64,000 bases of DNA from Diphasiastrum complanatum (lineage: Eukaryota > Streptophyta > Lycopodiopsida > Lycopodiales > Lycopodiaceae): the NCBI GenBank assembly GCA_029204225.1, contig CM055113.1, positions 27,186,995 to 27,250,994 on the forward strand. The letters run 5' to 3'. Under the pieces are notes generated by a model, which did not search any database, was not told where the DNA came from, and saw only the letters and a program-made list of their open reading frames with translations. A program made the position numbers and the translations under genes. This document shows, piece after piece, positions 28,093 to 58,098 of the stretch (within the stretch, counting starts at the first letter, position 1; every line of letters starts with the position of its first letter).

Positions 28093-28163
28093 TTAGTCAT
28101 GAAAGGGTTGCTTTGCTAACCACATCTTGAGTGAATAAGTGTGCTAAACTCTTGAGTGCTAAT

Positions 28164-28715
28164 GAGTGCTGGTATTGATATTTTTAATATCAGTGTTGTC
28201 TTGGTATTATACTATTTAAAAAAATTTGATACCGGTCAGGTATTAATATCAACATGTTTTGTAAATTGGTGGTTGGTATCAACCAACCTGGGTCTTGTAG
28301 GGGTGATACCAGCCGAGTATAAACCTGGGTTTGAGTATATAAATTTTTTCTAGAATTTGCCATTTTATAAAGGGTAGTATGCATTTAATGAAAAACATTA
28401 CCTTTTTAAATGTAATATGCATATGATTTTAAAGGCCAATACTTTGTTGGTGCTCACCAATGTCTTTGGGACACCATGAATGATATTTATCACATATGTA
28501 AATTTTGGAAACTAACTAAAAATGGATACTATATGGATACCATGTTAAATTTGAATTTTTTACCCCTAATCCGGGTATTGATATGTGCATTGACTAGCTA
28601 AAACCAACCCACGTCGATATCGACCATAATATCACAAAATCATATACCGCGCGGGTATGAGTCTATGATACCATTGTTGATATCAGCCGGACACCTATAT
28701 ACCCGCCCAACACTG
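28164..28715. mobile_element. hAT-like MITE, word GATATC/GGTATCA
   Basis: This is a 552-bp non-coding element. The right end (cccaacactg) and left end (gagtgctgg) are inverted matches at 7 of 9 positions and resemble the classical hAT terminus CAGTGTTGG. The flanks are gtgctaat (28156-28163) and gtgctaac (28716-28723), a 7/8 match for an 8-bp target duplication. Both ends are packed with gatatc, ggtatca and ggtat words in both orientations. It has no transposase, so it depends on a partner. Confidence 0.65.
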
Positions 28716-28723
28716 GTGCTAAC

Positions 28724-29051
28724 CACATCTTGTTGGAACTAGCGTTCAGTTGAGTGAATGGGTAACCACAAGTACTTGAGTGAAAGGGTGGGTGTGCTAA
28801 CCACACTTGAGTGAATGAGTGTGCTAATAGCTTGGCTTATTTTAGTTTTTAGTCTCTTTCTATTTTGCTCTCTTTTCTTTTGTAGTCTTTTTTTGTTGCC
28901 CCCTTGTGGGTGGGTCTAGGAAGCAACGAATCCATGATGTTGCACGTGGTCACTGGCCTACATTTGGATGTGAATATAGGATGCCACATCATGTGGCCAA
29001 CCACCACCCCGGTGGTGGCCAGCGACCACCGGGAGGGGTGCAACACATTAT

Positions 29052-29082
<31 letters not shown>

Positions 29083-29186
29083 CAGCTTGTTGTTGACTCT
29101 ATACTGGCCACACGCAAGTTCTTTTTTTTTGGGGGGGGGGAGCTATCTAAAAAAGCCCAACTACCATCTAGCTGCCATGATTAGTT
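28724..29186. other. Intergenic with homopolymer runs
   Basis: No gene is visible. It holds a (C)30 run at 29054-29083 and a T9G10 run at 29122-29140. Proline- or glycine-rich frames through these are artefacts. Confidence 0.6.
29054..29083. repeat. Poly-C run of 30
   Basis: Thirty uninterrupted C residues. The complementary poly-G strand could form a quadruplex. Exact length is prone to sequencing error. Confidence 0.85.
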
Positions 29187-29854
29187 TGATAAAATTTTCA
29201 GAATTCACACGTGTGGGGAATGTCCACGAGTATGATTGATCTTGATTAAGCTTTGTGATTAGCACAGTAACCTGATTCTAGATTGTTTAGCAATATCTAG
29301 TTCAGAAGAAATGGCTTAACCACAATCTAGCATGCTAAGCATCAGATTATGATAGCAATGAATCAAAGAATGAACAAAAGTACAAGATTTTAGTGTATTA
29401 GCATTAGCTTCAACATGAGTTAGAGAGAGAAAGCTAGAGAGATAACAAGCAAAATAGTTTAGATCCAAAATGGCATGAGGTAGCTACAAAACTTTGGTTC
29501 TTCATCATTGATTGTGAGGAGAGCTACACATATTTATGGAGTTTGAGGTAGCTCGAGGTAGAACCACATCTATCCATTCCAAGATGACAACTTAAGTGAC
29601 ATCTAGAGTCTATGTGACATTTGTCACTTGCCATGCATGAAATTCTACCAACTTTTTACAAGTGTACTAGTTCTAACTAACAAAGTACAAATCATCATGC
29701 ATGTGTCCATTATACTTTGTGCATGCCTTGCATGTCACTATGGATCACTTACAGTTAATGCATGTGAATTGCCACGAGTTTCTACAAGCATGAATTTGTT
29801 AATTCTATGTCTACAAACTATATGCAAGTTGTATTCTTCAAACTAGACATTACA
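29187..29854 (-). repeat. Copia LTR (3' side)
   Basis: 668 bp with TG...CA ends, pairing with 32408-33074. Its inner edge is only about 80 bases from integrase-coding sequence, which shows how short the internal region is. Confidence 0.9.
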
Positions 29855-32407
29855 TAACCATGTAGCTCGAGTTCTATGTAGGCCAAACTTGGCATTTTGC
29901 TACATACTTGCAAGGTACAACATTAGTAGCAAGCCTAGAAATCAATATGATTTATTTTTCCAATTTTAACACTCCTAATAGAAAACTGTTTCTCAACATA
30001 AGCTTTGAAGATTAGGAAGTGATCAAAAACCATTGTCTTTGAAGAAAGTAGATACAACCAGGTATATCTAGTAAAGTCATCAATTAAGGTGACAAAATAT
30101 GTTGCACCACCAATACTTTTAGAAGAGGAAAAATGTACGTCTGAGTGTATAAGCTCCAAAGGATGAGTAGTCTTTATAAAAGACTTCTAATATGGCTTTT
30201 TGTGTGACTTTGCAATGGCACAAGGCTTGAAATCTTTAGAAAGAGATTTTGGAAGACCAATAGCCTTCATCTTCTTAACCATAGATGACATAGATTTAAA
30301 GTTAAGATGACCCAACCTTCTATGTCACAGCTCCTCCTTAGATAACAAAGCAACTTCACAAAGGTTTGCATTCTCATAAGAATTCAACTTAAAAATTCCA
30401 CCACATCTAGTTCCATCAGCAAGGATCTCATCTTTTCTCTTGATAAAACAAGTATTGGAGTTGAACTTTACATCACAACCATTATCAGACAACTTTCCCA
30501 CACTAATTAAGTTCTTTGTAAGTTTTGGAATGAAAAGAACAATAGAAAGTGCAAGAACTTTTGAAGAAGCAAGTTTCAATGGAATGTTGCCAATTCCTTC
30601 AATTGGGCACTCATGATCATTAGTTGTGTAGATAGATCTCTTGAGTACTTTGAAAGGTAAGATTGAGTCAAACGACTCCTTTGAATAGCACATATGTGAA
30701 GAGGCTCCACTGTCTATATACGAAGCTCCATCTTTCTTGAAAGGTGATGAAGAAAAACTGGACACCATAAGTGATCCTTCTCCATCACTTGCAACAGAAT
30801 CTTCTTCAATCTCTTTGGAGAGATTAGCTTGCTTGAGTTGGTTTTTCTTCTTGAAGCAATTAGAGGCATAGTGCCCCTTCTTGCCACAGAAGAAACACTT
30901 CACTTTCTTCTTCTTGGTCTTTGAGTTAGAAGGATGAGATGTATCATCCTCTTCACCATCTTTGTCTCAATATTTGGCTTTGTCTTTGTTGGATGCTTGA
31001 GTGAACTGATTCTTACTCCTTCCTTTCTGCTTGCCTTTGACAAAGAGGGCTTTGTCACTTCCACCATGCTTGAGTTTGTTCATCTTGGAGAGTTTATAGC
31101 TTTGTCTAGCTTCTTCAGAAATAAGAATTCCTTGGAGAGTTTCTAGATTAGGCAATTCCTCTTTAATAGCAAAAGACTGAACAAGATTATCATAATCATC
31201 TCTCAAGCCATTCAGTATGACTTGAACTAGCTCATCTTGGTTAATGGTAACACCAACACAGGAAAGCTCTCTATGTAAATCTTTAACTCTTAGAACATAG
31301 TTGGATGCACTCTCTTCACTTCTTTGGAAACTTTGGAAAATCTGATTCCTAAGAGTGAGTATTCTAGAAGTATTTTTTGCTTCATAGATAGTCTTTAGTG
31401 CATCCCAAGCTTCTTTGGTTGTAGTGCAAGATCCTATCTCTCTCAAAATTTCATTAGATACATTCATCTTAATGAAATGTAGAGCCATTCTAGCTCAGCC
31501 TGTGCTTGAGGCTCCTCCTCAACACCAAGCACAATATCCATAACATCCTAGAGTATCAAGATAGACTCCATTCTGAACTTCCAAACTGAGTAATTAGAAG
31601 TATTTAGTCTTTCACTGGCTTCTAGAAGATATCCTCCCTGAGATGCCATTTTAATGAAGACTTCTTAGTTATTGGACTGAGATATGTTTGAGCTTGTTCC
31701 AATTAGACTTAAATTTGCTGCTCTCTTTCACTATAGGTATTCAAGGATGTACTACCTTCCTATGTGAAACACTTGCAACTGTATATGAGATGACTCTCAA
31801 ATATTCCACAAAACAAGTTATCTAGATCAAACACACAAAGTGGATTGAGACACTTTGGCTAGTTTGAATCCTACTTTTGGAACGTGTGAAATGCTTCAAA
31901 AGAAAACACAATTGACTCTCAGAAGGCTCAAAAGGTGTTCATTACTTCAAACTTAGTCTTGATCTTCAGTTTCTTGTATAGGATGTTCAAAACAATGGAT
32001 TCAGAATAAAGCAAGATTGAATCAAATCAAAATGTTGTCACTCGGATTTTGGACCTATCCCTATTCTCTTTAAGAGCTTATAACTCTTGCTAGATACATC
32101 AGATTGATTTCGTTTTGAATTCTATGGAAAGTACAAATCATAAGCTTTCCATTAAGCTATAACACTGCTATCTTTGGATCTATAAGCAAGGAGAACAAAA
32201 GGACTGAAAAGTCTTTGATTTTCACGCGTGCGGAATTCCAAAATTCCTTACTACCACTTTTCAGGTCTGAAAATTTAGTTCCAATCCTATTTGGTCCAAA
32301 TAAACTTCAACGAAAAGTGAGAAAAAGTGCAAAACTATTTTTTTGCTTGATTTAGCTCTCAGTTTCTTGTACAATAGCATGTAAAGCTTAATTTGGCTCT
32401 GATACCA

Positions 32408-33074
32408 TGATAAAATTTTCAGAATTCACACGTGTGAGGAATGTCCACAAGTATGATTGATCTTGATTAAGCTTTGTGATTAGCACAGTAACCTGATTCT
32501 AGATTGTTTAGCAATATCTAGTTCAGGAGAAATGGCTTAACCACAATCTAGCATGCTAAGCATCAAATTATGATAGCAATGAATCAAAGAATGAACAAAA
32601 GTACAAGATTTTAGTGAATTAGCATTAGCTTCAACACGAGTTAGAGAGAGAAAGCTAGAGAGATAACAAGCAAAATAGTTTAGATCCAAAATGGCATGAG
32701 GTAGCTACAAAACTTTGGTTCTTCATCATTGATTGTGAGGAGAGCTACACATATTTATGGAGTTTGAGGTAGCTTGAGGTAGAACCACATCTATCCATTC
32801 CAAGATGACAACTAAAGTGACATCTAGAGTCCATGTGACATTTGTTACTTGCCATGCATGAAATTCTACCAACTTTTTACAAGTGTACTAGTTCTAACTA
32901 ACAAAGTACAAATCATCATGCATGTGTCCATTATACTTTGTGCATGCCTTGCGTGTCACTATGGATCACTTACAATCAATGCATGCGAATTGCCACGAGT
33001 TTCTACAAGCATGAATTTGCCAATTCTATGTCTACAAACTATATGCAAGTTGTATCTTCAAACTAGACATTACA
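32408..33074 (-). repeat. Copia LTR (5' side)
   Basis: 667 bp, adjacent to the tRNA-iMet primer site on its inner (left) side. Pairs with 29187-29854. Confidence 0.9.
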
Positions 33075-33190
33075 AGTCTGCCTACCAGGTGAAGGATCCA
33101 CCACTTTAGCCATTTACTTCAAGTTGCTAGGTTGTGGGTCTTCTACCCGTATAGGTACATGCTCTGGTTCTAGCTCTTCCTAGACAACAG

Positions 33191-33752
33191 GTAGTCGATC
33201 ATCACGTATGGATTGCTTCCTGGTAGCCACAGCCGCTTTCTGGGCTCTAGTCATCACCAAGCAAGTTGGATCTACTTCCGAATCAGCAAGGTTGATTAAG
33301 GTCACAGGACTATCTTTAGAAGAGTCGCCATGCTTTAGGATTCTAACCGGCTCTGCCGTGTCCTTAGAAGTGCCAGCAATTCTAGATTTTCAGGTCCAGG
33401 CTGGTTAGTTGCTTCCTTATCGGCTTTCAACTTCATCCAACTGGTACCTACCACCATACCACCACACAAAACCGCGTGGTGGGATGGTGGTAGGTACCAG
33501 TTGGATGAAGTTGAAAGCCGATAAGGAAGCAGCTAACTAGCTTGGACCTGAAAATCTAGAATCGCTGGCACTTCTAAAGACGCGGCAGAGCCGGTTAGAA
33601 TCCTAAAGCATGGCGACTCTTCTGAAGATAGTCCTGTGACCTTAATCAACCTTGCTGATTCGGAAGTAGATCCAACTTGCTTGGTGATGACTAGAGCCCC
33701 GAAAGCGGCTGTGGCTACCAGGAAGCAATCCATACCTGATGATCGACTATTA
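33191..33752. repeat. Long near-perfect inverted duplication
   Basis: Arms of about 275 bp (33191-33465 and 33476-33752) are inverted copies with roughly 95% identity and a 10-base spacer (acaaaaccgc). Each arm encodes the same gypsy-like segment when read away from the centre (DSEVDPTCLVMTRA). A transcript across it would fold into a hairpin of about 275 base pairs. It looks like an inverted duplication of part of an old retroelement. Confidence 0.9.
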
Positions 33753-33849
33753 GAGCTGTTGATTAACACAACAGAAAGCAGCAAAATGGCACCAAAGGCA
33801 CTTGCACAGACAAAGCAAAAGCTGGACTTCCTTTTTGTATTACCAACAG

Positions 33850-35460
33850 AGCGTGAAGATACATAACATGGCAAATCTACACACTCGCTCTCTCTCACTG
33901 ATACTAGATATGTAAAAAGAGGCTCGCACGCTCATATCAACATCCCTCACGTAGGAGGGAAAGGAGATACCAAAAGACTTATAGCTTAAGGAAATGACTC
34001 TCACTAGCAATGTGGCCCTACCCAGTCACTCGTTATCAGGAGTGGTCCTTAGGGTTTTTAACTCGAATGGGCATTTTTGTTAGTCAGCTTCGAAAGCTCA
34101 TAGGAGCCATGGCGGCATCTCAACCTCTCATCATCCAAGCGTTTGGTAAGTTCCTCTATTGAGGTTGTCTGCTGGTTGATTACTTTTGTTAGCCTGGGTA
34201 GCAACCGAAGTATACGCGGCCTGATAGTATGGGACTTCGCTCTCCAACTGGTAAGATTCAGTCTTAGCGGCCGCTAGGTGGCCCTCAACTCCTAACAGCC
34301 TCTCGCGCAGTCGAATGTTATCAACCTTCAACAATGTCAGCCTCGTCTCACTAGCAGCCAGGTTTTCCTTTCTAATCTCTTTTTCAGCAATCTCTGTGAT
34401 TTTACCAGTAAGAGTCTTCATCAATTGTGCCTTCAGTAATGGGATTCTCTCAATCCATGCATTAACCCATTCAATGTCGACACATTTAGCAGCAAGCCAC
34501 TGCTCAGCATCAACAGATGATATCATAACCGGCGTCTTTAATCGGATGTCCTATGACATAGTTTCACCAATACCATACCCATTGTGCATCGACAGGGGTA
34601 CTAGGAGTTGGTCGCTCCTTAGCAAAAGCACCTTTGTCAGTGTCAGTGAGTGAACTCCTTGGTTTCACCAGCGTGACGTCTTTAGTTGGATGTAACGCCT
34701 CTTTTGCTAGGATATGTAGCCCACCATAGATACTAACAAGTGTCTTCACAAACCCAGGTGGTCCAAGGCTTCCAGTTCCAACATTAGTCTATTCAGGCTC
34801 AGCAGTCCTTGGAGTAAAAGGCATTCTGGAGTCTCGGACACCTCCTTAGTCAAATCTGTAGAGATGTTCTCTAGTCCAAGGCTCACAGCCTCATCAGGGC
34901 TAGCATCACGGAGTCATTATCAGCCACATCATCCTCCACATTTACCACATTACCAAAGATATGCGCAAGGACTTCCTCGTCAGATAGGCCTCCAACCATA
35001 TTGACGTCATGAACAGGAGTGCTCACATCTGAGTACCTCTCAGGGTCATCTTCAACCACAGCTTCCAACTAAGTGATCTTTCGCTTAGCTCTTGTTCTTG
35101 GCTATGCTAACAACCCTTTTTTGGAATTGTCTTCATACGGGACTTCCGTGACAAACTATCATCTTGCAATTGAACAATATTGTGTCCTGACGAAATTCAT
35201 AATCAACAATGATGATGGAATCAGAGCCAATGACGTGGAACGCGTTTGATTCAACCAAACTACTATCATCTTATTGATAGGAAAGACAAACTCCAATTGC
35301 TTGCTCTTCCCAGCCACAAAACGGCTGATATCACGCTTAATCCATTCGAGGGTCCATTCTGTCCAATTCAAGACAGTGCCATTGTAGGCTTTGATAGCAG
35401 CTTGAACCAAGGCTCCGCTCAAAAACTTGTGATCTGCTCGTTGTTACTACAACTTTAATA
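33850..35460 (-). mobile_element. Fossil coding region, unrecognised, probably element accessory
   Basis: The minus strand holds consecutive protein-like pieces. The first is ALVQAAIKAYNGTVLNWTEW with WIKRDISRFVAGKSKQLEFV (35159-35422). Next is an acidic piece, MVGGLSDEEVLAHIFGNVVN (34883-35068). A helical piece follows with IRLRERLLGVEGHLAAAKTE, predicted coiled coil (34131-34526). Codon-like composition suggests one protein that is now broken in several places. I recognise no family. Its position beside gypsy fragments suggests an accessory ORF of a large gypsy-type element, but a host-derived pseudogene is possible. Confidence 0.4.
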
Positions 35461-35990
35461 TACATAATCGCTATTGTTCCATCTCTTTGCATTCTTGTTG
35501 AATGTTTATAAAGTATCACTCTTTCCTTGAAATAATATCATAACAGAGAAATGTATGGCTGTCTTTGACGCCTAATTGTACTTACATTTCTTTGTATCAG
35601 AATATCAATATCAGAGAATTGCATGGCTTTCACAGACACCTAATTGTTTTCGCAATTTCTCTTTATGGTAGTCCAAGACTCCTACATTGATAATTGTTCA
35701 CATCACACAATGATGTGTGCTGATCCCACAAATGAATTGTCAGGGGCATTCTTTGAGTTTATGACTGAATAGCACCTGTGTTAGATGAGCCATTACTATG
35801 AGAAATTGATAGCGAGGATAATAGATGTGGTATTGATTTAGAATGATTATGGTTGGCATCCTACGGGCCCAACAAATTTATAGGCAATAGCTCCTAACCA
35901 GATGAAGACCCTATGCCTTCGATCAATCGACTTCTTCACCTGGCTAGGGGTACCCTTACGTGGGTACCTATCTAGGCAAGGCTATTCAAT
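35461..35990. other. Intergenic with diverged tandem duplication
   Basis: Around 35545-35670 two related segments repeat the words agagaaatgtatggct, gacgcctaattgt and catttctttgta in diverged form. No gene is visible. Confidence 0.4.
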
Positions 35991-35999
35991 GAACCCTGG

Positions 36000-43460: not shown

Positions 43461-43468
43461 ATGTAAAT

Positions 43469-43964
43469 CATAAAATCTGAGAACCGTGGACAGTTCGCCA
43501 CAGTTCTTAGAACCGTACAATGCACTGTATGGTTCTCAAAAATTTTAGAGGCGAACCGTGTAATAATTAATTAATTATCTATTTATTTTTAAAGTTTCCA
43601 CCCCCCCAAAAAATGCCAAAAAAAGCCAAAAAAAAAACCTAAAGAAAGTTGCATAATTGAAAAGCCTGCTGCATCTCTTGGATCCATAGAATTGAAAAGT
43701 TGCATAATTTTTGCACAAACCCAGAAATTAGATAGATTGCCCATCTTCATAAAAGTTGAGGTAATACAAGAGACATCAATTATTCAACCAATTTCAAATT
43801 TAACCATTCAAGCCAAAAAATTGTTTTGGGAGAAATAGGCAAAAAAAAATTTAACTAATTAAATAATCGTAGGAACCGTACAACCGTACCACTGTTCATG
43901 AATCTTGGTACGGTTCACCCCAAGGTTTCCAGGACCCACGGTTTTGGGAACCGTAGGTTCTATG
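43469..43964. mobile_element. hAT-like MITE, word AACCGT/ACGGTT, near PSMD9 promoter
   Basis: This 496-bp non-coding element is flanked by a perfect 8-bp duplication, atgtaaat (43461-43468 and 43965-43972). The right end read inward is catagaacctacgg; the left is cataaaatctgagaaccg. Both ends repeat aaccgt/acggtt words, with an A-rich centre. It ends about 210 bp upstream of the PSMD9 start codon, so it probably forms part of that promoter region. Confidence 0.8.
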
Positions 43965-44128
43965 ATGTAAATATGCATTATTCTATCGACAAAAAAATAT
44001 GAGATGAATGCAAAAACATTTTAAAAACCGATAAATTAAAAAAAAAGGATATTGCAGGGAAACCCGAAAGAGGTTTCGTGCTACCGTGTATACATAGTTG
44101 CGAAGACAAACCATAGATACTTCTATCA

Positions 44129-44131
<3 letters not shown>

Positions 44132-44171
<40 letters not shown>
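44132..44171. repeat. (GA)n microsatellite abutting PSMD9 start codon
   Basis: About 20 GA units end only six bases before the PSMD9 ATG, so they should lie in the transcribed leader. Confidence 0.95.
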
Positions 44172-44172
<1 letters not shown>

Positions 44173-44177
44173 GCGCG

Positions 44178-47100
44178 ATGGTGGGTGCCAACGTGAAAGC
44201 GGAGACGCTGTCCTTGATGGATAGCAGGAGTAGCATAGAGGAAGAAATGAATGCCATTATCGCGCGCCTTTGCGCGCCTGGTGGTCCTGGTCTCACCTCT
44301 AGTCTTGTCGATAAAGAGGTAACACAATCTCGATCACTAACTTTTCCGTATCAGCTTTCAACTGAACAGAAATTTAATCACTACTCATGGAGAAATAGAG
44401 GTTTGAAATCGTATATCTTCGTGATCCTGGACCTCCCGGACGCCCCTGGCTTTGCTGTGATCTCAACGCCTGGGATGTTTGGCTACTTAGTATTTTAGTG
44501 ACCTGTGAATTTTTAACTCCACACAAATGATATAATTTAGGTCAATCGTCCGGCTGATAAGGCATGCCATCTCCATTAGATTGTCAAAACGGCATATAAA
44601 AACTTCAGATTAATGTAATGTGGAGTACCCTAGATTTGGTAGAAGAAGTTATGCCTTAGTCGTTACAGGTAGTATATTCTTTCCTGGCATTTTGGATATT
44701 AGCCCAGAGAATTGATGGTTGAGATTTTCCATTGTCCTCTGAAATTCAGTGAATTTTAGTTGACCGTCAATATAGTTTTATACTGATTGTAACTTTGGTG
44801 TAATTTTCTATGCCATTTTCATGCTGTATTTTACTTTGTTCTTTTCAATCCCGGAAAGGACTCTATCCATGCACGGTTTTATGAGATTACCTATGCCCAC
44901 TCATCAAAAAATTTGGATTGGCGGTTGTTTTTCACGTAATTGATCTGCATTACGATGAATTTTCTGCACCTAGTTCAATAATATCGAATGTAACATTTTA
45001 CCAGCCATTCCTATGTTAGATTCTGTTATGTTGCTCAGATATATTTTTGGCTCGCTTTAGCAACAACGCAAAGACATCATTAAAATTTGTTTCATTTCCG
45101 GTAACTGTTCCAAGGCCCATGCACCACTAGTTGTGCATCGTGACACCTCACTACTGGACACCTCTGCAGCCTATCTGGGCCACGTCATCCAGTTCTTCAA
45201 TGACTCATTGATAGACCCATACAAATCCACCATCAAGTGTTTTAGGCCTACAACCATTAAATTATGACCATGTACACATAAGGGCCCCAATTCCCTTATA
45301 GTCACAATTAACTTACGGGTTATTGGTCTACCGGTCCCTAGCGTGGACATGCAAGTCGAAAAAAACAGGAAAAAAGCGGGCTGTTTGACGTCGAATTTCT
45401 TCCAAACGGAAAAAGCTTTTCACGAACCGTCAATTGGTAGGCCCAATCTGCACCCTTAATTGCAGAAACCGGAGAAAAATCGGAGAAGTTACGCCCAATC
45501 CAAAAATCTGACCTATGTTTTGCTTGAAAAGCGACTTTTTGGTGAAATAGAGGCAAATTTGCTCCAAAATCGACGTATGATGGCTCTATAGGATCGCTAT
45601 GGATGCTAGGAACATGCTCCCAAAATCTGATCAGGATCTGAGAAGGTTCCGGAGAGTTATGAGCGGAAAACCTTCAGGAAAAATGCGCTGGCCCTCCAAA
45701 ACTTTGAAATTTTCTGAAATCTCAGAATTTGCAGCGTGAATCCTTGCTGATCTACAACGACTGCCCACTGGAAGTGATCTGAGACAGATCTCCCTCAAAT
45801 ATGAGTTTTCTCACTTTCTCTCTCTAGAACAGACGTTTCTCTCTCTAGAACGAGGCTCTGATACTAATTGTCACAAGCCAGTCTCTCCAAGCTCGTGAAT
45901 CCTAGAAGCCGATGTGTGAAATGAACCTCCCAACCATAGCCACCCCCTCCTTGAGCCCTTCTACTTGCTATTCCCGTCAACTGGCACATGGGATCCACCT
46001 GTGGATGATCAGTGCACTTGGCATGCCTGGCCCCTGTGACCTATGAATACTGAGTGACTCATAGGGTACCACCCCCGTGTTTGACAAAGACCTGTGACAC
46101 TCTTGGTCACCCCGACTACTTGTCGGCTAGCCTCTCGTCACTGACGGCTAGGGTCCTGTCACTGACGGCTAGGGACGGTCAAGACACACCGCATCTCTGA
46201 CAGCTTGTCAGGCGGCCACACCGGGTCACTGCTCGTGACGCACCGGTCCCAACTTGGGACAGATGTCCTCCTCAGTCACTGGCCCTTGCCAATACTTGGC
46301 CTCAGGCCCTCTAGTGACCGGCCGTGCCGAGGTCATGATAGAGTCGTAACTGGACTCTAACATGTATCATTTGTTAGAGATACTTAACCTTTCCTAGAGG
46401 ATTATTTGAGGCATTATGCTTCTCCTACCGGTAAGAATTGGGAGTTAGGACCAACACCTATGTTTTGCAAAATATAGGTTCTTTTTGGAATCAGTAAACG
46501 TATCACCATTCTTTTGGCCAACATTACCTGTAGATATCCCAAAACAATTGCTGGCATTGTCGGTGACCACCTGCACCACATGATCAGCCCCCACCTCAAT
46601 GATTGTTGCACGTATATGCTCATAGATGAACTCTCCAGACTCAACAGCGCCGTCTCGAGAGGCATCCACACCCTTGAGAAATACTGTGACCAGCGGCATG
46701 TCGTATGGGGCTGAGCTCTCTCGTGATGCATGCATGCTCCTCTCTCAAATGGCGAGTACGAAGAGCCTCCCTCATCATGTCACGGAAGATAGTGGTGTCA
46801 GCGAAAGAAAATGCAAGGTAGCCACTATAAAGACATTGGTGTGTAAGCCTGATGCTGTGCCAATAGAACCCAACTGCCCACCAATCTGTACCCTGGGCCT
46901 AGTCGTTGTTGCTGCTTGCAGAAACTGCCATGCATGGGGCAATGCCCATGGTCCGTCCATCTGGCCTGGTCAAACCAAGCAAGTGTGCTCTGATCCTCAT
47001 TGTCGTGTTGCAAAAGGTGGCACCACAAAACAAGCAACGCCATCTGCGTGCACCTGAACCTGTAAAAATCACAGTATCCTCCTCCAAGAGATAAGACCTA

Positions 47101-50100
47101 CCCTAAATCCCTAAGCCCTAATCCCCCTAGGAAAAAAGGCAATGCAAAATGCCCACATGCACACCAACCACATGAATGCTCATAGTGACCACCTATGCAT
47201 AAAGAAGCTTGGGAACATGCAATCACTCTCTCCGTAGCAATTGTATGGCCAATCTTAGCAACAGGAATCACTCAAAATGATGCAATATAACCTTCAAACA
47301 AAGCAAGGAAAAAAAGGGTGAAAAAAAGCTCCAAGAAGTTGCTTTGCTTGCAAATCCCTACCTAATCATTGTTGCCCACTTTTGAGTGCTACATTCACCT
47401 GGCAATCATCAAAGCCTTTGCATTAAGTGCTCACACTACCCATTTGGCCACCTACTTCTATTGGACAGCGATCCGTTGTCCGGATCGCCAGAACGTGGTT
47501 GCAGCAGATTACGATTTGCTGCAACCATGTAGACTAAACATAAATTTGTCTTCCTCATTACAACTTTTTTTTCAATTTTGGAAACTATTTGAATGATCAG
47601 TTCATTATTTTTTTGTATTGATTGATGTGTAAGTACAACAAGCAATAAGTTGACATCTAAAGAGATATTGAATGGATTTTTTTCACAGGGATTTCCAAGG
47701 GCAGATATAGACGTTCATGCCGTTCTCACAGACCGACATCGCTTAGCAGGTATCTTAGATTTTATGAGCATACTAAGTGATAAAAATTATGTGTTAGCTT
47801 GAAAGTTGTCACCAATTGAGCTTAGGTTATTTTATGCATGAAGGTTGATCACTACTGAAGTAACTACTATGTGCACTTTTGCATTTTTTAGCTCTTCAGA
47901 TCTCTTCCCAATACCCCAAGTCACCTTGGAAAGTATTTGGACTAAAATGTTAGGAATTAATGGTTAATTAATTAATTGTAGAGGCCAGCCTACGTGCTAG
48001 AAGGCCTACTTCTATTTCTAGTATAGGTACTATCTATTTTTAGTATAGGTACCTAAGTTAGTACCAATTTTGCTAGAATAGTATAGAAATCTATTTTAAC
48101 TAAGATAGCATAATTTTATTGTTAAGACTTCATAATTAGCATTCTAATTGCTATTGTAGAAGGATAGCTCTTGCTTTTGAGTATGGGCGGTCTCTATAAG
48201 AGTAGATGGGCGCTGTCCTTCATTATTAATTCAATACAGATCAGTTCTGTTCATTGCTCTTGTGATTCATCTTCTTCCTCTTGTGTTTGGTGTTTTGTTG
48301 AGTACCAATAAGATTAGTCTACTCCTAGTTTTAGAATCACTCAGATTCTAACATGGTATCAGAGCCATCTCATTAAGATTGGCATCTACCGAAGAAAGGA
48401 TTGGAGAAGTTCATCGTAGTCGGGCAACTTCATTGAAGACGAAGGCAAAAGTGAAGTTGTGGGATGCTATGAGTTATTCTCAGCTTCAACATCAGAAAAC
48501 TCAAAAAACTGTTGGTATATTGATTTTGGAGCAACACAACATATGACACCACATCGTGAGTGGTTCACACAGTTTGATGACAGTGGTGTAAATTCACATG
48601 TCAAGCTTGGAGACAATTCTTCTTACGACATCAAAGGTAGAGGTATAGTGAGAGTACATTTACCTTCAGGGAATATAGGAGAAATTAAGAATGTTCTCTA
48701 TGTTCCAGGCCTAAAGAAGAAATTACTTTCAGTTTTTGCTATTGCTAAACAAAATATGAAAGTTGAGTTTGATGATCAGAAGTGTCTTATCAAAGACAAA
48801 AACAAAGGTTACAAAGTTGTGGTCAAAGGATCTTTGGAAGGAAGACTTTACAAACTTGATGCGTCTACATCGGATCATCAGGTTTAGGCAGCTTCTGATG
48901 GCATGGAGAGCAGGATGTGGCATGAAAGGTTTGCTGAACTATAAAAGCTTACAGGTTCTAAAAGACAATAATATGGTCATAGGATTACCTAATGTGAAGG
49001 ATGTGTTATGGGCAAGCATCATCGTATGCAGTTTCCTAAGGATGGAGCATATAGAGCCAAGGAGATCTTGGAGCTTGTTCATATAGACCTATGTGGTCCC
49101 ATGCAGACTGATAGGGGGAGCATCCTACTTCATGGTATTTGTGGATGATTTTTCCAGGAAAGTATGGATATACCTGCCTAAGTATAGGAGTCAAGCTTTT
49201 AAGTTCTTTACTCAGTTCAAATCACTTGTTGAGAAGCAAGCAAGAAAGCAAATCAAGATTCTACATTCAGATAAGGGAGGTGAGTTCATATCTACAGAGT
49301 CCCAGGAATGCTGCAAAGAACATGGAATCAAGAGACAATTTGCTTCAACTAATACACCACAACATAATGGAGTAGCCGAGAGAAAGAACAGGTCTATTGT
49401 GGAGAGTGCTCGAAGCATGCCATGAGGTAAGAACCTAAGTTTCTTGTCGTACTTGTCCAAAATTTTGTAGGCAAATTTTTTTATTTATTTAAAAAAACGT
49501 AAATATTACAAAGGGTCCGTTCCGACCCAGCTTTCAGCATATAATGGTTCAGCAGATACGGTGGAATATCTTCAGCTGGTCGGTATTCAAATGTCTCGCC
49601 ATCATGACCTCCCACAGTGATTCTGGAACGGCAACTATGCGTGTAACAGAGTTACAACCAATTTTAAATTATGCCGTAATTACTTATTTAAAAAAAATTT
49701 AAAAAAAAAAAAAACCGGACGCGACCGCGTCCGGACGCGCGTTCGCGTCAAGGTCCCACTTCCTTAGGTTCGAACTATTTTAGACTCTCTTTTAGTTTTA
49801 TTTTTGGTATTTCAGCTTTTGGTGTATTTAATAATAGAAAATTCGGAAAAGTGGGGAGCTAAGGAGCCTGCTTTTCTTTTAGTATTTTGTATTTTTTGTC
49901 TCAGCAACTGTGTCTACAAATTGTGGTCCTTGTTTTTTATTTTATTTCATTTTGGATTATTGTTATTGTTATGATTATTTTATTTCTTCTTGACTGTCAT
50001 TTGCTTTTATGTCAATCACGGGTCTACGCAAGAGAATTAAATTTTTTTCAAACAGTTAGCATCTTATGTTTGGGTCATAGGTCCCGCGGACCCCGGTAAC

Positions 50101-50676
50101 ACGGGACCATATATGGTACCGCGGTACCATATCGGTCGGCGGTACCAAAAAAAAAAAAAAAAAAATTTTGCGAAAATAACACGGGAATTTTTTTTTTTTT
50201 AATATTATGGTACCGCGGATCCCAGGGCGGTACCGTACCGGCGGTACCATAACAGCGGTACCAGGGGGGACACTATGGTTTGGGTACTGAAGAGACATAA
50301 GGAATGCTATTTGGCTAAGAGTCTTTGTTTATTGAATTTTATATTATTGTTTTGATATAAATACTTTGAGTTTTTTGGTTGCACGTAGCTACTGCGAGTC
50401 ACAGCTTAAACATGTCAGGCACTGACTTATGAACTAGGCATTGGCTTATAATATATAACTGACTTGTAATCTGGGTCAGTTCCTGACCCAATAAGGAACA
50501 TCCAAACTTATAGACTTGGAGCTTTTAACATATTACATAACGTAGAGATTACCTCTAACCTAGCCTTCATGTTCAAAGTGTTTTTAATGACATAACCCGC
50601 TCTTTAGTAGTAGAATATCTGTTTTATTATTATTATTCATCGTCAATGTGTAATTCTGGTGGATCAATCACTTTAC

Positions 50677-50735
<59 letters not shown>

Positions 50736-53700
50736 CACTCAACTGTCTGTTTTACATGAGCTAGAAGGATGAGATATAACTAATTTAAGGATGGATGGGC
50801 GGTTAACATGGCCTAGTTCGCTTGCCAACCATTGCATCCTTGTCTGGTGACATGTTGCTAAGTCTGTTTGATTCGGTTCTGCTTTGAAGCACTTCTGAGT
50901 GCCAATGAGGCGTTTTACACATTTTTATGATAAGTTTAATCAAATTTGTAAGGTTCATAATGTCTCAAGTTCACATTGCTACTTCTCTGAATTGTCATTG
51001 ATGACCAGTGTCCGCACATTAAGGGCTGATAAGAGATATATTGATGACGTGATAAGACTGTTATGGCGCATTTGATAGCATAAAATGTAAATTCAAGGAG
51101 CAACAGAGATGTGTGGATCAGAAGACAAACTGACCTTAGTGATATAAGCAAGTGAGCATGAAGGCGCAAATCTTCACGAAAGTTTCTTGAATATCTTTGG
51201 ACCTAAGGAAGCGGGGGCTGGACGCAGACGCATGTCCGGACGCGCGTCTGCGTCCGCGTCCGCGTCCGGACGCGGACGTCTCAGGGGTGCATCCACGTCC
51301 AGATGCGTCCCCCATTTCAAAATTGTTTTTTTTTCAAAGGAAAAAAAAAAATGGCACTTGCCCTTGCTGTCCCACATCCCCAAAGCGAAATAAAAACAAA
51401 TTATTAACTTTGCCCCCCCCCCCCCCGGAATTAATTATCAGAGGGTGTCTGGCACCCACCTGTCCCCTCCTGTTAAAAAATAGGAAAACGGTACCCAAAA
51501 AAATTTGCAACAAACCTAACCACTGCCCCCATGCCTCCCATGTCTGATATCTACCCGCGCGCCCTTTTTTTTTTTCTAAAAAAAAACTCGTCCGGGGCCC
51601 GGACGCGTCCAGAAAAAAATTTTAAATTTTCTTTTGGGACGCGTCTGACCCCACGTCTAGGGTCGGACGCGTCCGGGTCCGGGCGTCGGACGCAGACGCG
51701 AAAAGCCTGCGTCCGGCCGGGACCCTCATGTCTGCTTTGGACAAAAGTTCAAATGGATACAGTTTAAAATCTCAATAAGCTAGCAGACAATATTTTGGAG
51801 GAATAGCTTGGGGAGTATAACTTTTGTTCTTGATTGGAAATCTGCTACTTTTTGAGAGATGTACACATGTTTTTGAGGATGATCATGAATCATTGAGCCC
51901 TAAGTTGACCCTTTGTACATTTCAGAGTCAATTTGGAATACTAGGCAGCACTGAGTTGCAGAATCTGTTGTAACTTTTATATTAGACAATCTGGTTGTAA
52001 TTTAACTTTTTGTCAAATTAGCTTCTAACCTATATTTGAATTTTGAACATGTTGATAGTTGGCACAATTTCTTCCAGAACCTTTTAACGGCTGTTAATGT
52101 TGGCTACTTGATTGCAGTACTTCGTAATGATCACAAGGATATCACAGCCCAAATAGAAGAAAAGATTTATGTTTTGCATTCAGGAGGCTTCACAAGAGAT
52201 GGAACTCTTCCACAGAAAAGAACAGGTATACTACCAGGTCATCATTAATCATCAAACTTTGTTGTACTCGTAATCCGAAATTCATTCAACCTTAGAGATA
52301 CATCTATCAGGCATCTTATGAGTCTCTGGAAGACATATTAGTGTTGGCAGTTAAATGGAACTTTTGCTAGTTATAAGCCATTATATGATATTCATGGGTT
52401 TCCTTGCACACTTCATTGGACTAAGCTGATGGTGAGGAAGTAAGGCCTCAGAGGGTTCCATCTGCAACAAGGACAGTAGCTCAAGAGGCACCAGCTCATG
52501 CGACTGGAAGGACTGAAACTACTCCTATGGAGGAAGATCGATCCATCAGACCTTTTGCCACTTTTGATGAGGTTACCGAAGGGTCACCTGCAGCATTGGA
52601 TGGGATTGTATTGGGAGACCAGCTGATCAAGTTTGGTAGCATTGAGGGAGGTGAGGATCTGTTGCGCAGACTTGCCAGGGAGGGTCAAATGAATGAAGGC
52701 CGTACCATATCCGTAGTAGTTTTGAGACGCGGTTCACAAATTGAGTTGTCTGTTACTCCACGGCAGTGGTCTGGGCGTGGCCTTCTTGGGTATGTCTGCA
52801 CTCTGAACTCTTTTTCAACTGTGATTGAAGATTCCATTGTCTCACTCAAGCTCAATTGATTCTCCAACGTTTGAAACTTCTCTCCTATGTTCTGGTATTG
52901 AATAGTTCATTTCCTAGCGTCACTGCTGAACATCACTTTTGAGGAAGCACATCTTTTAATGTACATCATTTAGTGGAGTTTTCACCAAAATCAACCTGGA
53001 AGACCGAAATGGTTTCAGTAGGCTCATCTAGTTACTGCTGTGTTGAAGTTTAGTAGGTTTTGCTAGTCGTAGGTTTGAGTCTGAGAACAAAGTCTGTCTG
53101 CAGTATAGCATAGTGATGATTATTTAAGGCACTCTGATGATCCTTCAAATTGCTCGTGTGGATCATCTCGGTTGAAGACTGGCCTGCTGACAGTCAGTCT
53201 TGTTTGTTTTAACTCATGGAAGTGGTGGAGCTGCAATAGTTATCTTTTACATCATGCTATGTGCCAAGGGCAAAGTAAACTTCAAACTCCTCTACATTCT
53301 CTCTTGTAGAAAAGTTTTCACTTCAGCAGCAAGATAATGATCTTCCAAGGCCTCTAGACTTTGTCTTTGTGGTGCAGTCTGTCTAATTGACAAGGACATG
53401 AGTTCGTTATAATTATGTAAGTGGAACTGGGTGTTTTGAATGTGCACACCTTGCATATACATGATATTCCTAAGTCTCACATATCTGCATCTGAATTGAG
53501 TCTTAGGTAGTTCTCTTTTAGTTGAAGAATACTTTTTTCACATCTACTAGGTGACATGAAAATTTCATGAATACCATTTCTCATATGTAAGGTGTGCGCC
53601 AGAGCTGTTTTACGAAATATTACATGCTGGTTAATGGTCACCAATTAGGTCTGAAGTTCTAGGCACACATGGACATACAAGAATAAAAAACTTAGCAGAG

Positions 53701-53813
53701 CTAACACTAGTTTCAATAGTTTTGCTCTCTTAGATTTCTCGTGTTGAGCGTCATTTGAGATAATTTGCTTATCCTGTTGTGTTGGTTGCAGATGTCATAT
53801 TCAGGTGCTATGA
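44178..53813 (+). CDS. PSMD9: 26S proteasome assembly chaperone PSMD9 (Nas2/p27)
   Basis: Five exons join in frame: 44178-44318, 47689-47749, 52118-52225, 52426-52789 and 53792-53813. All have GT/AG borders. They encode 231 residues, close to plant homologues of about 225. The Nas2 N-terminal domain spans exons 1-3 (LMDSRSSIEEEMNAIIARL, then GFPRADIDVHAV, then VLRNDHKDI). A low-complexity linker precedes a PDZ domain in exon 4 (FATFDEVTEGSPAALDGIVL, LGDQLIKFG, then ISVVVLRRG). The gene ends GRGLLGCHIQVL, the family's usual C-terminus. PSMD9 is a chaperone that binds the Rpt5 tail and modulates assembly of the 19S base; it is not part of the mature proteasome. The start has a strong context and follows a GA tract. 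Introns 1 (3.4 kb) and 2 (4.4 kb) are swollen by mobile DNA; introns 3 and 4 are short (0.2 and 1.0 kb). Confidence 0.93.
45105..46362 (-). mobile_element. LTR, primer site and leader fragment in PSMD9 intron 1
   Basis: A candidate LTR (45869-46362, TG...CA) lies to the right. On its left is ctctgatactaat, a variant inverse primer site, so the element reads on the minus strand. Leader-like sequence follows leftward to about 45350. The dispersed 260-bp module shared with 19835-20095 comes next (45105-45345). Inside the LTR the phrase gtcactgacggctaggg is tandemly repeated (about 46135-46170). No coding parts remain. Confidence 0.55.
46414..47090 (-). mobile_element. hAT transposase remnant (BED finger and DUF659)
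   Basis: Read on the minus strand, 47087 to about 46970 gives a BED-type zinc finger (RWRCLFCGATFCNTTMRIRA with a following HL). Then comes a piece with AFSFADTTIFRDMMREAL, and 46735-46445 gives the DUF659 core (VFLKGVDASRDGAVESGEFI, then VVQVVTDNASN, where the aspartate is the RNase-H-like catalytic context). The C-terminal hAT dimerisation domain is absent and the frame is broken, so this is an inactive remnant. It lies in PSMD9 intron 1, within 5 kb of several hAT-like MITEs. Confidence 0.8.
47948..49434 (+). mobile_element. Ty1/copia 5' fragment in PSMD9 intron 2
   Basis: An LTR of 406 bp (47948-48353, tgttaggaatt to tctaaca) is followed directly by the primer site tggtatcagagcc. Internal parts recognised are protease (WYIDFGATQHMTPHREWF), GAG-pre-integrase remnants and the integrase core (FVDDFSRKVWIYL, ILHSDKGGEF, TPQHNGVAERKN). 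Most of gag is missing, and there is no reverse transcriptase, RNase H or 3' LTR. It is broken. It lies in the sense orientation inside PSMD9 and its integrase region abuts a MITE. Confidence 0.88.
49435..49767. mobile_element. Probable MITE, word GGACGCG/CGCGTCC
   Basis: The right end, read inward from 49767 (ctaaggaagtggg, then gacgcgaacgcgcgtccg), closely matches the left end of the element at 51203-51734. A ctaag occurs at 49435. The flanking 8-mers gtaagaac and gttcgaac agree at 6 of 8 positions. The right terminus is convincing by homology. The left terminus is less certain, because copia sequence does not clearly resume on the right. Confidence 0.45.
50076..50277. mobile_element. Short hAT-like MITE, word GGTACCGC
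   Basis: This 202-bp element has a perfect 8-bp target duplication, gtttgggt (50068-50075 and 50278-50285). Its inverted ends are cataggtcccgcgg and, from the right, catagtgtccccc. Both halves consist largely of ggtaccgc/gcggtacc words around an A/T-rich centre. It is non-coding and lies in PSMD9 intron 2. Confidence 0.85.
50680..50732. repeat. (GA)n microsatellite in PSMD9 intron 2
   Basis: About 26 GA units without interruption. Confidence 0.95.
51203..51734. mobile_element. hAT-like MITE, word GGACGCG/CGCGTCC
   Basis: This 532-bp element has a perfect 8-bp target duplication, ctttggac (51195-51202 and 51735-51742). The left end reads ctaaggaagcgggggctggacg; the right end read inward is cagacatgagggtcccggccgg, an imperfect inverted match. 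Both subterminal regions are dense arrays of gcgtccg/cggacgc. The centre holds A runs and a (C)12 run. It is non-coding, far more GC-rich at its ends than the surrounding intron, and lies in PSMD9 intron 2. Confidence 0.8.
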
Positions 53814-54530
53814 CTTGCAGCAATTGGTTCAGGATGATGAACTTTGTGGAAATTCTTAATGATATCACAACTTCAAAGCAGTGCTGGAGCAATAGGGAAT
53901 TAGGCTTGCTGTCAGGACTGTCCAGACAAACATTGACTGAGTATGGGGATGCATGAGTGTTTAGTTGGATTTCTGACAAAGTGTTATCTAGTTGCTTACT
54001 AAAACTTGCCATTGAAATATTTGCACTCTTCTGAATGGTGGGATTTATTTCACTAACATCAGTTGCTCTTGGTCGGGAAAGTTTCTAGTAGCAAATTTTT
54101 TGTGGTCAATCTTCTATGCCATTGACCATTTTCTCTAATTTTATACTTTCTAGGTTGACTTTCATCATAAGAGTCTGGGAAGTGACAATAACCTGCATTA
54201 TGTAAGACCTTATGAATACAATGTACAGTTAAAATCAGTGAGAAAGAAATTTTGGCTTGCAATGCTCAGAATGTACAGAAAAGATAGGAACAAACCATTT
54301 AAATAACCCATAGCAAGTATGTTGCAAATTGTATTTTTAACCCGAAAGTTATAATAGTAGTGTGTCAATAATGCTGTGTCGAGTTATAACTATAACATGT
54401 AGGTTGATCATGAACATTAAGTGATACCTGCAAGAGGCCCAACTGTGGAGTTTCTAAGATTTTGTTTTTGAAAAGTTGTGACTAGTGAGTATCAGTACAA
54501 TGAGATAGGACAATAAGCTTTGTTGCTTCT
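53814..54530. other. PSMD9 3' flank
   Basis: Presumed 3' UTR followed by AT-rich sequence. No gene is visible. Confidence 0.5.
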
Positions 54531-54812
54531 TAGAAACCCGTTCCGACCCTTTTGGGCCGGAACGTACTGCTCGTTCCGTACAGTACATTCCGGAATGTAC
54601 TGGGTCAGGACGTTTTTTTTTTAAATTAGAAAAGCAGGTATTATAGTGCCACTTGCAACTATTAGTAGCTCAGATATATAACGTGGCTTAGATAGCGATT
54701 CTAGTTCAGATAGCGATTCTAGCTCAGATAGCAATTCCGTACTTAAATCATTGCGATTCTAGCTCAGGTAGCGATTCCATATGGAATGGGCAACTATTTA
54801 ATTTTGGAGGCA
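54531..54812. mobile_element. Candidate MITE, word GTTCCG/CGGAAC
   Basis: The left part repeats gttccg, cggaac and gtacattccggaatgtac. The right part repeats gcgattctagctcag and ends ggaatgggcaactat. The ends ttagaaacccgttcc and, from the right, atagttgcccattcc are imperfect inverted matches. No 8-bp duplication was found. It resembles the neighbouring MITEs in design but has weaker support. Confidence 0.35.
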
Positions 54813-55176
54813 TGTTTCTGTTGCATCGAATAAAGCAAGCTTTAATCTAAATGACTGGTGAAAATACTGTATGGATTATTTCTCCTCACAGATGAAATAC
54901 ATATGCGTTGGAAACATGAAGGTATGAATCCAACAGGCAAACAATTATTTGCTAGAAGCTAGAAGCATCTTCCTTTAGTCGTTGAGTTTCCTACCAATCT
55001 CGTCTGCCTCTTCTACACCTGATCGTTAAGTTCACCTCTTCGATTGTCGGTGCATGAAATGATTAGTCTACTCATCGGCATTAAAGGATTGATTTTTTTT
55101 TTCCCGATCTTATGCTCTTTTTTTACAATCTAGTGTCTCATCTTATGGTCCGCTAGGTGAGTTGCAGACCTCCATT

Positions 55177-55300
55177 CCATAATTGCAGCGAATCGTGATT
55201 CGCTGTCAGAATTGTTGTAAAAAAAAAACCAGAATATACTGATTTTTGGGCCGCCTCCTTGCGGCCAGAATCGCGCTACTAGAGGAGGCAAATTTTTTTT
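55177..55300. mobile_element. Partial MITE related to 55647-56396
   Basis: ccataattgcagcgaatcg, followed by tgattcgc, matches the left end of the element at 55647. Then comes an A run and a short GC-rich inverted repeat (ggccgcc, ggcggcc-like). Only one terminus is recognised. Confidence 0.4.
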
Positions 55301-55646
55301 TTTGTGAGCTATAGGCTTCCGATCTTCGCATGTGGATAGTCGGCAGGCATCTACTCAGCGATACGGAGGTGGTGTGCACGGTGCCAGGGGGGTCTGAGCT
55401 TTGTGGAGAGCGAAACGATCAATTTTCGATATTTGGTAAGTGTAGGGTTGATTTTTTGCAAGTGTTGACATTCAGCTGTAGCAACCAAATCGAGCGTAGT
55501 TTGGCTCTAGACCACCTTTCTTCATGCCCACGGTGATTCCTACGGCGTCAGTTTCAGCCGTTACGGCATGCCTAGCAAGATTTGAACACCACATTTGCAA
55601 TTGATTATTGTTTCAATGTTGCCAGTTCTGGATTCGAATGCCTGTC

Positions 55647-56396
55647 CATAGTTGCAGCGAATCGCGATTCGCTGGGTCTGCGATGCGCGGGTTGCGAATC
55701 GCGAATCGCGATTCGCGACCCAGAATCGCAAAAAAAAAAAAAATAGCTTATTGCTGAAATTTTTTTAGGGGATCAATGGTCAAACCAGCGTTTTGCCTTT
55801 CAGAAGTGCAGTAGATGAGGCACAAACAGATCTTATTTTCAGTAGCTATCTGGTTGTCATTTGCTCTGGTTTTCAGTAAATGTTAATGCTACAGTTTGGA
55901 CTATCAACTGTATGGATGATGATCACTTTTGCAATTGGTTCACTGGAGATGTGAGTGCAATGTACGTACAATTGGGGGCATAAATATTGGGCCCTTCTCG
56001 GCGCACATTTGGACCCCATTTTTATTTACAGGGGGGTGGTGGCATTTCTATCTACAGTGTCTATACAGCAGGAAGCTCTAGGGGGTTCGGGGGGCAGTAG
56101 TCCCTCGGGAAATGGGGGGTTCGGGGGGCGGTAGCCCGCCGGTGGGGCGTTTGCAGCGGTAAGGCCTCTTCATGATTTGGCCTTTCACTTCCCCGAGTAA
56201 AAACACACTTTTTGGTGTTTCGCACCCGAAACAGTCGGCAAACTACACAATCATAATCCCCTCGATCAGAGCTTTCATCTGATACCCATATTGCCTAAAA
56301 AAAAATTTAAAAAAAAAAAAAATCGATTCTACACGATTTTGGGAAAATCCCGAATCGCGAATCGGAATCGCGATTCTGAATCGCGCTGCAACTATG
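55647..56396. mobile_element. hAT-like MITE, word GAATCGCGATTC
   Basis: This element is 750 bp with inverted ends catagttgcagcg at both sides. Both subterminal regions repeat gcgaatcgc, gaatcgcgattc and close variants, each beside an A-rich run. The centre has a duplicated ggggggttcggggggc phrase (about 56085-56140). It encodes nothing recognisable. No flanking 8-bp duplication was seen, so the insertion flanks may have diverged. Confidence 0.65.
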
Positions 56397-58098
56397 GTCC
56401 AAATGCCAGTCATTGTTGACTGATTTTGATGCTTGTATATGTATTAGTAAATTAGACTTGCTTGAATCATTGTGCATTAACGAACAAAATTCAGGATGTT
56501 ATTTTTCGATAGAAAACATATAAGATGTTGAGCAGCATGATGCATATCATCTCATTCAGTGAACAATATTCCATTTATGCACTTTTACCATGGGCAAAGA
56601 GATTGAGAACTTCATTTCACAGAGTTGCAATCAAAGTAGAGCATGGGTAAGGAGTTCTCTGCCACTTCTTTAAGAATAAAGAATACGAGATTACGTAATG
56701 TGGATAGTTTAGCCACCGTTCTTTCAATCTATAATTAACTTAGGGTGTTCTTGTGTGGCTCATCATTACTTCATGCTTCCCAACAAAAGCTTACTATGCT
56801 TAGTTCTTTCCTATTTATGGCCTACTATGCATCAACCTCTCACTCTAATGCATGCAAAATACTCATATATCATCATTCGCTTTTAGGCATGTGAAAACAT
56901 TTCCCATGAAATAGCAAACTTCCAAAATCATCAGTCTAACTTGTCAAAAGCTTATACCTTCCATATTCATGAAGCAAGGATTTCAGGCAAAATAGTCTCT
57001 CATAGAACCGAAACATGTCTTATAAGTTGGTCTTTTGGTCCATTATCCACATGCACGTCAATCTACTTGCACTGGCTATCAGTACATATAATCATTATAA
57101 CACTCTTACAAAACTAGCACAAAACACTATTCACTTATGTGAAGTAAAACATCATTCTGATGATGGATTATTACAAGGTTTTCAGGGCACCTACTTATTA
57201 CACAGGCACCTATTTTTACACATCTCACAAAAAAGCCATGCTCAAAAAGATTTGATAATCCAATGACATCCCAACAAGCAGCTCTTACCACTGATGGTTG
57301 TCTCATAACATTAGCAGAAAACTTTCACATGGTAGTATGTGGCAGGCAATACCAGCACTTCAGTTGTGCATTCAAAACAAGTTCTTATCACTAAAAGGCT
57401 AGAGCCCTCTGTGGCCCACATTCATATGTAGTTTGTAAGAAAGTTCTTGTTGGGGTGTGGTTGGATTTAGAGAATTCAACACTCTTTTACTGTTTGCACG
57501 GTTTCTCAGATTTTAGACTTACTTTCCTAGCACCTGGACTTCACACGCAATACTTATTAGAAGTAGCAAAACTCACTTTTGGCCACAAAGCTAGTTTGAC
57601 AGGTCAAACATTTGACCAATGCCAGAAGTCTAAATTTTATGTTTTCAGCTTGTGGCTTGATGTGGGGACTTCACGTTCCACAACGCCCATCCTTTTTGTG
57701 GCTCGTGGCTTGACTTTGCAGGTACTAGCCATATATATCATCAGCAAGGCAAGTTCCTTCTGCTGGTGGCAGCCTTATTTACATATCCTTATCAGAGGTA
57801 CAACTGATAGTGGACTCTTTCTACACAGCTTGGTCCATTTCTATGAGAGATGCATTTATAATCTTTGATCCCCATTTATGCTAATTTGATATTCTGCCTA
57901 ATCATGCAAGCCCTTTATCAAGCTCAACCTGTTTATGGAGGTATTGAGCTAGTTTTCAATCAACTATGGCTTTGTTTTGTTTTCTCTTCTATGTCCTCAT
58001 TTTGTGATAACTTATGACCTTAAGAAGATCAAAGAAAGTCCCAACTTGCCCACTACTTAAAGGCGGACACTTATGACCTTGTTTTATGAAAGCTATAC

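Follow-up and report, generated by a model that had tools for sequence, protein, structure and literature searches.

Five short elements and their target duplications

The genomic stretch considered here is a 64-kb window of the lycopod Diphasiastrum complanatum (assembly GCA_029204225.1, contig CM055113.1, positions 27,186,995 to 27,250,994), and every result given below rests on this single window. It contains five short elements, labelled E1 to E5, whose left and right ends are marked L and R (Table 1). Exact 8-bp target duplications flank E2, E3 and E4, arrays of a short word occupy both ends of every element, the word is specific to the element in which it is found, and two of the words recur in second copies. 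With spans of 202-750 bp and no coding content, E1 to E5 are in the size range of miniature inverted-repeat transposable elements (MITEs). Indeed, the description of the elements as short and non-coding in the initial annotation is supported by the lack of Pfam matches, including for an open reading frame (ORF) at 51191-51547 that overlaps E4, which matched no Pfam family up to an E value of 0.01.

Duplications of 8 bp were searched for within 30 bp of the element ends, and lengths of 6-12 bp at the ends themselves. The duplications of E2 (ATGTAAAT), E3 (GTTTGGGT) and E4 (CTTTGGAC) are exact, and among lengths 6-12 none but 8 bp fits at these ends. In 200000 random draws of 8-mer pairs at like distances, perfect agreement had a frequency of 0.00011 and agreement with one mismatch of 0.0007. 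The E1 duplication agrees at seven of eight positions (GTGCTAAT/GTGCTAAC). Since the heptamer GTGCTAA repeats in the flank (five copies at 28141-28821, eight on the plus strand of the whole window) and further one-mismatch placements exist near the ends, this duplication is insecure and may be local repetition; E1, a probable element, is the least secure of the five. Thus, the 8-bp duplications initially annotated hold exactly for E2, E3 and E4 and remain doubtful for E1. For E5 none had been seen, and none is present at its CATAG tips. A displaced near-duplication of this element (AATGCCTGTC/AATGCCAGTC, 9/10) lies flush with the left tip and 5 bp off the right one, and was equalled by 0.7% of 4000 random placements in a test made only after the match had been noticed; it may be the trace of a small rearrangement that came after insertion.

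The target pattern nTnnnnAn fits three of the four duplications when E1 is included (P 0.003) and two of three without it (P 0.024), the E3 duplication having no A at position 7. This is also the Ac-type target pattern, and a stricter target motif is nTnYnRAn, a string with no occurrence in a text search of the literature. The Buster pattern nnnTAnnn is matched by the E2 duplication only. A de novo scan for exact 8-bp duplications combined with inverted tips returned four rows, with E2 alone among the five elements: E3 was removed by a filter against two-letter duplications, E1 was missed for its inexact duplication and a left tip starting with G, E4 for its weak tips and E5 for its lack of a duplication.

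Table 1. Elements and candidate element ends in the 64-kb window.
Feature	Position	Strand	Characteristics	Assignment
E1	28164-28715	no strand	552 bp; tips GAGTGCTGG / CAGTGTTGG; word GGTAT(C)/GATACC	probable hAT-like MITE
E2	43469-43964	no strand	496 bp; tips CATAA/CATAG; word AACCGT/ACGGTT	hAT-like MITE
E3	50076-50277	no strand	202 bp, very short; CATAG tips; word GGTACC(GC)	hAT-like MITE
E4	51203-51734	no strand	532 bp; ends CTAAGGAAG / CAGACATGAGGG; word GGACGC(G)	hAT-like MITE
E5	55647-56396	no strand	750 bp; inverted tips CATAGTTGCAGCG, 13 nt identical; word GAATCGCGATTC	hAT-like element
E4b	49716-49767	-	CTAAGGAAGTGGGACC and word array; absent from the initial annotation	second E4-family end
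E5b	55178-55205	+	CATAATTGCAGCGAATCGTGATTCGCTG	second E5-family end
Third E5-like tip	47502-47529	-	CATGGTTGCAGCAAATCG, within a 36-nt near-palindrome (by eye)	weak; uncertain as an end
Further end of similar architecture	54530-54620	no strand	word CGTTCC/GGAACG; 22-nt palindrome, then a T run	candidate; uncertain as an end

Words and composition of the ends

Ends were compared as 90-bp stretches by the hexamers that they share, and the comparison was repeated with 120-bp ends and without the first 20 bases. The left and right ends of one element have 11 (E1), 11 (E2), 20 (E3), 23 (E4) and 22 (E5) hexamers in common; the 40 cross pairs of ends have a mean of 1.5 in common and never more than 6. 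Of the 945 possible pairings of the ten ends, none does as well as the true left-right one, a result that holds with the first 20 bases dropped and with 120-bp ends. Among random pairs of 90-bp windows the 99th percentile is 10 shared hexamers, the 99.9th is 13 and the maximum is 53, and the sharing within E3, E4 and E5 lies above the 99.9th percentile. Subterminal repetition of one motif at both ends is therefore strong in E3 to E5 and modest in E1 and E2. Hexamer clusters in unrelated stretches of the window reach 6-7 per 120 bp, against a null maximum of 4-5 in 20 simulations; they include CACAAG, CTCCAA and the CCCTTA repeats at 5795-5897. Because equally dense clusters occur elsewhere, the weight of the argument rests on the agreement of two separate ends. 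A different word for each element had been proposed, and within the window this is borne out by the pairing of the ends and by the recurrence of two families' words in further single ends.

AACCGT has 19 copies in the window, 8 of them within E2, and occurs exactly in both orientations on the right side of that element only; 7 of the 19 copies of GGTACC lie within E3, 14 of the 19 of GGACGC within E4 and 10 of the 19 of AATCGC within E5. For E1 the annotated word, GATATC/GGTATCA, is sustained in its second form, the GGTAT class having 12 copies (0.86 expected), whereas GATATC has only two (0.18 expected). In a text search of the literature for the words, nothing related appeared among the matches listed, as far as titles and the starts of abstracts tell, and exact 26-nt and 18-nt patterns of the E5 tip gave no match in viral contigs.

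Agreement of the inverted tips over 16 bases is 8 in E1, 9 in E2, 8 in E3, 5 in E4 and 13 in E5, values reached by 3.6%, 1.1%, 3.6%, 41% and 0% of random window pairs, respectively (50000 draws). Inverted tips are thus clear in E5 and suggestive in E1 to E3, and the short inverted ends ascribed to the elements are at chance level in E4. CATAG stands at both ends of E3 and E5 and at the right end of E2, whose left end is CATAA; the tips of E1 are GAGTG/CAGTG and those of E4 CTAAG/CAGAC. In the part of the literature consulted the hAT tip consensus is given as (T/C)A(A/G)NG. By eye, one of the ten ends (E1R) agrees with it in full, eight agree at four of five positions and E2L at three.

Every end of E3, E4 and E5 has palindromes that are at least 8 bp long and include two or more G/C, one to three per 90-bp end, where 711 windows of this length average 0.32. 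They are present also in E1R and, as one that is not the word, in E2R; the 90-bp ends E1L and E2L have none. The E2 word AACCGT is not self-complementary. The palindromic nature of the words is therefore upheld for E3, E4 and E5, in part for E1, and not for E2.

An A/T-rich centre, annotated for most of the elements, is found in E1 (34% GC), E2 (28%) and the inner 64 bp of E3 (16%), but not in E4 and E5 (both 45%), the window standing at 40%. Moreover, 11 of the 26 runs of at least nine A or T lie within E1 to E5, which make up 4% of the window (P 1.7e-9, tested after being seen). These runs (43628-56322) are in E2 to E5, with none in E1, and by eye are often at the inner edge of the arrays. 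Per 90 bp, the ends of E3 to E5 carry 7-16 CpG, whereas 6032 control windows average 1.5. When controls are matched for GC, E3R is equalled by 3.4% of them, and for E4 there are only five controls. E1L is ordinary in this respect, E1R and E2L stand at the 5% level and E2R at 18% (GC matched), and CpG richness is therefore not general to the elements. CpG is present in four of the five words, as compared with 8.8% of window hexamers, and absent from that of E1.

Further ends and surroundings in the window

To find further copies, the elements were compared at low stringency with the rest of the window, and raw scores were set against the best of 100 random windows. Beyond E1 to E5 this gave single further ends of the E4 and E5 families. 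E4b is 81% identical over 54 nt to the left end of E4 (raw score 28, random best 14) and shares 17 hexamers with E4L and 15 with E4R. E5b is 93% identical over 28 nt (24 against 14), with 11 hexamers shared with E5L and 9 with E5R. With the ends of other families E4b and E5b share five hexamers at most. No duplication partner with up to one mismatch was found for E4b in 48700-49760 or for E5b in 55190-56600, and in neither case was the other end found. A candidate partner of E4b at 49435, where GTAAGAAC precedes CTAAG and resembles the E4b flank GTTCGAAC at six of eight positions by eye, was not accepted because the stretch reads as Copia integrase. The proposal was to fall if the words were not conserved between copies of a family; tip and word recur together in E4b and E5b, which speaks against such a refutation in two of five families, at one end each.

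Two more stretches are uncertain as element ends. The tip at 47502-47529 has 79% identity over 28 nt (raw score 16, random best 14), its hexamer sharing with E5L and E5R (3 and 2) is not above background, and four one-mismatch duplication partners over four assumed ends are none of them convincing. The stretch at 54530-54620 contains the palindrome CAGTACATTCCGGAATGTACTG and has a fold z of -3.6, with no duplication seen by eye.

A gene for p27/PSMD9, a chaperone of the 26S proteasome, may span 44040-52859. The ORF at 52425-52859 looks like an exon and matches two solved-structure sequences of p27 (best E 1.3e-10), with a Pfam PDZ_2 match below the cut-off; Nas2_N is matched only weakly at 44040-44498 (E 0.0076), also below the cut-off, and a 20-aa piece at 47689-47748 with the look of a middle exon matched nothing. 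If this gene is correctly read, E2 would end 213 bp before the first ATG, and E4b, E3 and E4 would be intronic.

Elsewhere, the minus strand carries a Copia-type retrotransposon at 10727-16084, bounded by 262-nt direct repeats of 97% identity, and an 84-bp tandem repeat with GATATC-like words (15206-15391) adjoins its gag ORF. The GATATC-like repeats at 15153-15391 were set aside, being located beside this ORF and between the direct repeats, which resemble long terminal repeats. The window also contains a 617-aa ORF (1353-3206) matching HAUS augmin-like complex subunit 3 (Pfam PF14932, E 6.4e-68), a 118-bp tandem duplication in two copies of 98% identity (23794-24034), telomere-like CCCTAAA repeats near 28045, which with the retroelement content point weakly to a plant, and a long near-perfect hairpin at 33192-33749, with two 274-nt arms 96% complementary and 10 nt apart, perhaps the result of an inverted duplication or a source of small RNA.

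Probable relation to hAT transposons and possible meaning of the words

We consider it quite probable that E2 to E4, probably E1, and E5 together with its relatives belong to several families of non-autonomous hAT-like DNA transposons, moved by transposases encoded elsewhere. Membership in the hAT superfamily is likely from sequence features: duplications of exactly 8 bp and the nTnnnnAn pattern agree with Hermes-type hAT elements, this being the Hermes target pattern in the consulted parts of PMC10368747 and PMC2803484. The assignment to hAT-like MITEs is supported for E2 to E4 by their exact duplications and for the whole set by the arrays at both ends and the absence of Pfam matches; the tips are short, and those of E4 are at chance level.

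Known hAT systems offer close precedents, here taken from the portions of the articles available to us. In the mosquito element Herves a common subterminal motif, printed as CG/AATTCAT, is present at both ends and is sufficient for binding, and according to the abstract the bound sequences differ between hAT elements, ensuring specificity (PMC3143072). Unlike E1 to E5, Herves is autonomous, and the term palindrome does not occur in the text searched. In maize, Ac transposase binds AAACGG repeats, a hexamer that Ac/Ds elements carry in several copies at both ends, and the Ds1 derivatives are short and keep the tips and a few hexamers (PMC3260210). However, AAACGG is not palindromic, the tips differ, and only 17 of 331 Ds1 have at least three hexamers (PMC3260210). 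Hermes has quasi-palindromic subterminal repeats, a pair of which is bound cooperatively by BED domains that need an A/T-rich neighbour, and in Tol2 a perfect palindrome, AAGTACTT, adjoins the tip (PMC10368747). Both are long autonomous elements with short A/T-containing words without CpG (PMC10368747); the published Ac and Herves motifs contain CpG, as do four of the five words here. The A/T runs beside the arrays recall the neighbour needed by Hermes, which we offer as a suggestion. Mar, a Drosophila family of hAT MITEs, is likewise a short non-coding derivative with 8-bp duplications, but its targets are of the Buster type, which only E2 fits, and word arrays are not mentioned in the portion consulted (PMC3517528). 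The proposal that words diverge while the architecture is kept is close to a published conclusion; given the Herves statement and the binding of Ac transposase to AAACGG, it is a known rule applied to MITEs. Among the literature matches listed there was no report of these elements and no survey classifying transposase specificities by MITE words, which is weak evidence of absence since subscription papers and Repbase were largely outside the search.

Several observations weigh against this assignment. Pfam scans reported no hAT domain in any of the 48 listed ORFs with a length of 110 aa or more (E up to 0.001 in one run and 0.01 in the others; shorter and window-edge ORFs lay outside the scan), and a regular-expression search with hAT motifs gave three rows, none in a hAT context. 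The evidence from copies is confined to the window and includes no genome-wide copies. The E1 duplication is insecure and E5 has none of 6-12 bp at its tips; the E4 tips are not inverted beyond chance, since 41% of random pairs match as well, and those of E1 and E3 reach the 3.6% level only. CATAG departs from the hAT consensus at the third base, and the end sharing of E1 and E2 is modest, only just above the 99th percentile. Finally, certain Ds1 elements are mobile although they lack the hexamer (PMC3260210), and a repeated word need not be a binding site, because Hermes GTGGC, found near the tips and first taken for one, was not, later binding data pointing to AAGT (PMC10368747, in the part consulted).

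This last precedent bears on the idea that the words arose mainly by local slippage or hairpin-driven expansion, have no binding role, and agree between ends through an inverted-repeat ancestor. Local duplication did help to build the E4L and E5L arrays, as a hexamer tandem in the former (GCGTCC at 48, 54 and 60, followed by GGACGC at 66) and 7-nt direct repeats in the latter indicate. Moreover, Tandem Repeats Finder (TRF) reports arrays of 14 and 18 nt in E3 and of 13 and 14 nt in E5, and the case of the Hermes GTGGC agrees with such an origin. However, none of the arrays listed by TRF falls in an end of E1, E2 or E4, word spacing is irregular in E2 and E3, orientation is mixed in E2R and E4, and second copies repeat the words together with the tips. 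We regard this idea as unlikely, although it is compatible with the elements being hAT-like transposons.

Another superfamily is a rather improbable source of the elements. P, Merlin, KDZ/Zisupton and some Mutator-like elements (MULEs) also make duplications of about 8 bp, the CATAG tips match the hAT consensus incompletely, and the case for hAT is built on the duplications and the target pattern that they show. The three secure duplications are nevertheless of exactly 8 bp, not 9-11, and the Hermes-type target pattern appears in two of them, or in three of four with E1. That the palindromes work as cruciforms or hairpins and not as duplex protein sites is very improbable: in single-stranded DNA folding of ten stretches (E4b, 54530-54620 and eight of the ten element ends, all but E1R and E2R) z ranged from -1.60 to -6.70, with nine at or below -1.92, but E1L reached only -1.6, hAT precedents bind duplex DNA in the available parts of PMC10368747 and PMC3143072, and folding does not decide between the two since any inverted word array folds well.

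If the elements are hAT-like transposons, each word may be the binding site of a different transposase, as we infer in agreement with the statements on Herves and Hermes. A hAT transposase made elsewhere would recognise the word arrays through its BED zinc finger, head-to-head (palindromic) words would allow a pair of BED domains to bind next to each other, and the transposase would then assemble on both element ends, cut at the tips and insert the element with an 8-bp stagger. There would presumably be one transposase per word.

The elements are real but ordinary in kind, fitting known hAT biology. A more speculative proposal, which we consider improbable, is that the words are a set of codes next to A/T runs, most of them with CpG and most self-complementary, each hAT family having its own, and that CpG methylation of the arrays switches transposase docking family by family. 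If that were true, MITE ends could be read in two ways, as switches gated by methylation and as a record of the specificities of extinct transposases. The present elements are a small sample, yet if the pattern extends genome-wide, the words could pair MITEs with their drivers and reveal the DNA specificity of hAT transposases, lost ones included.

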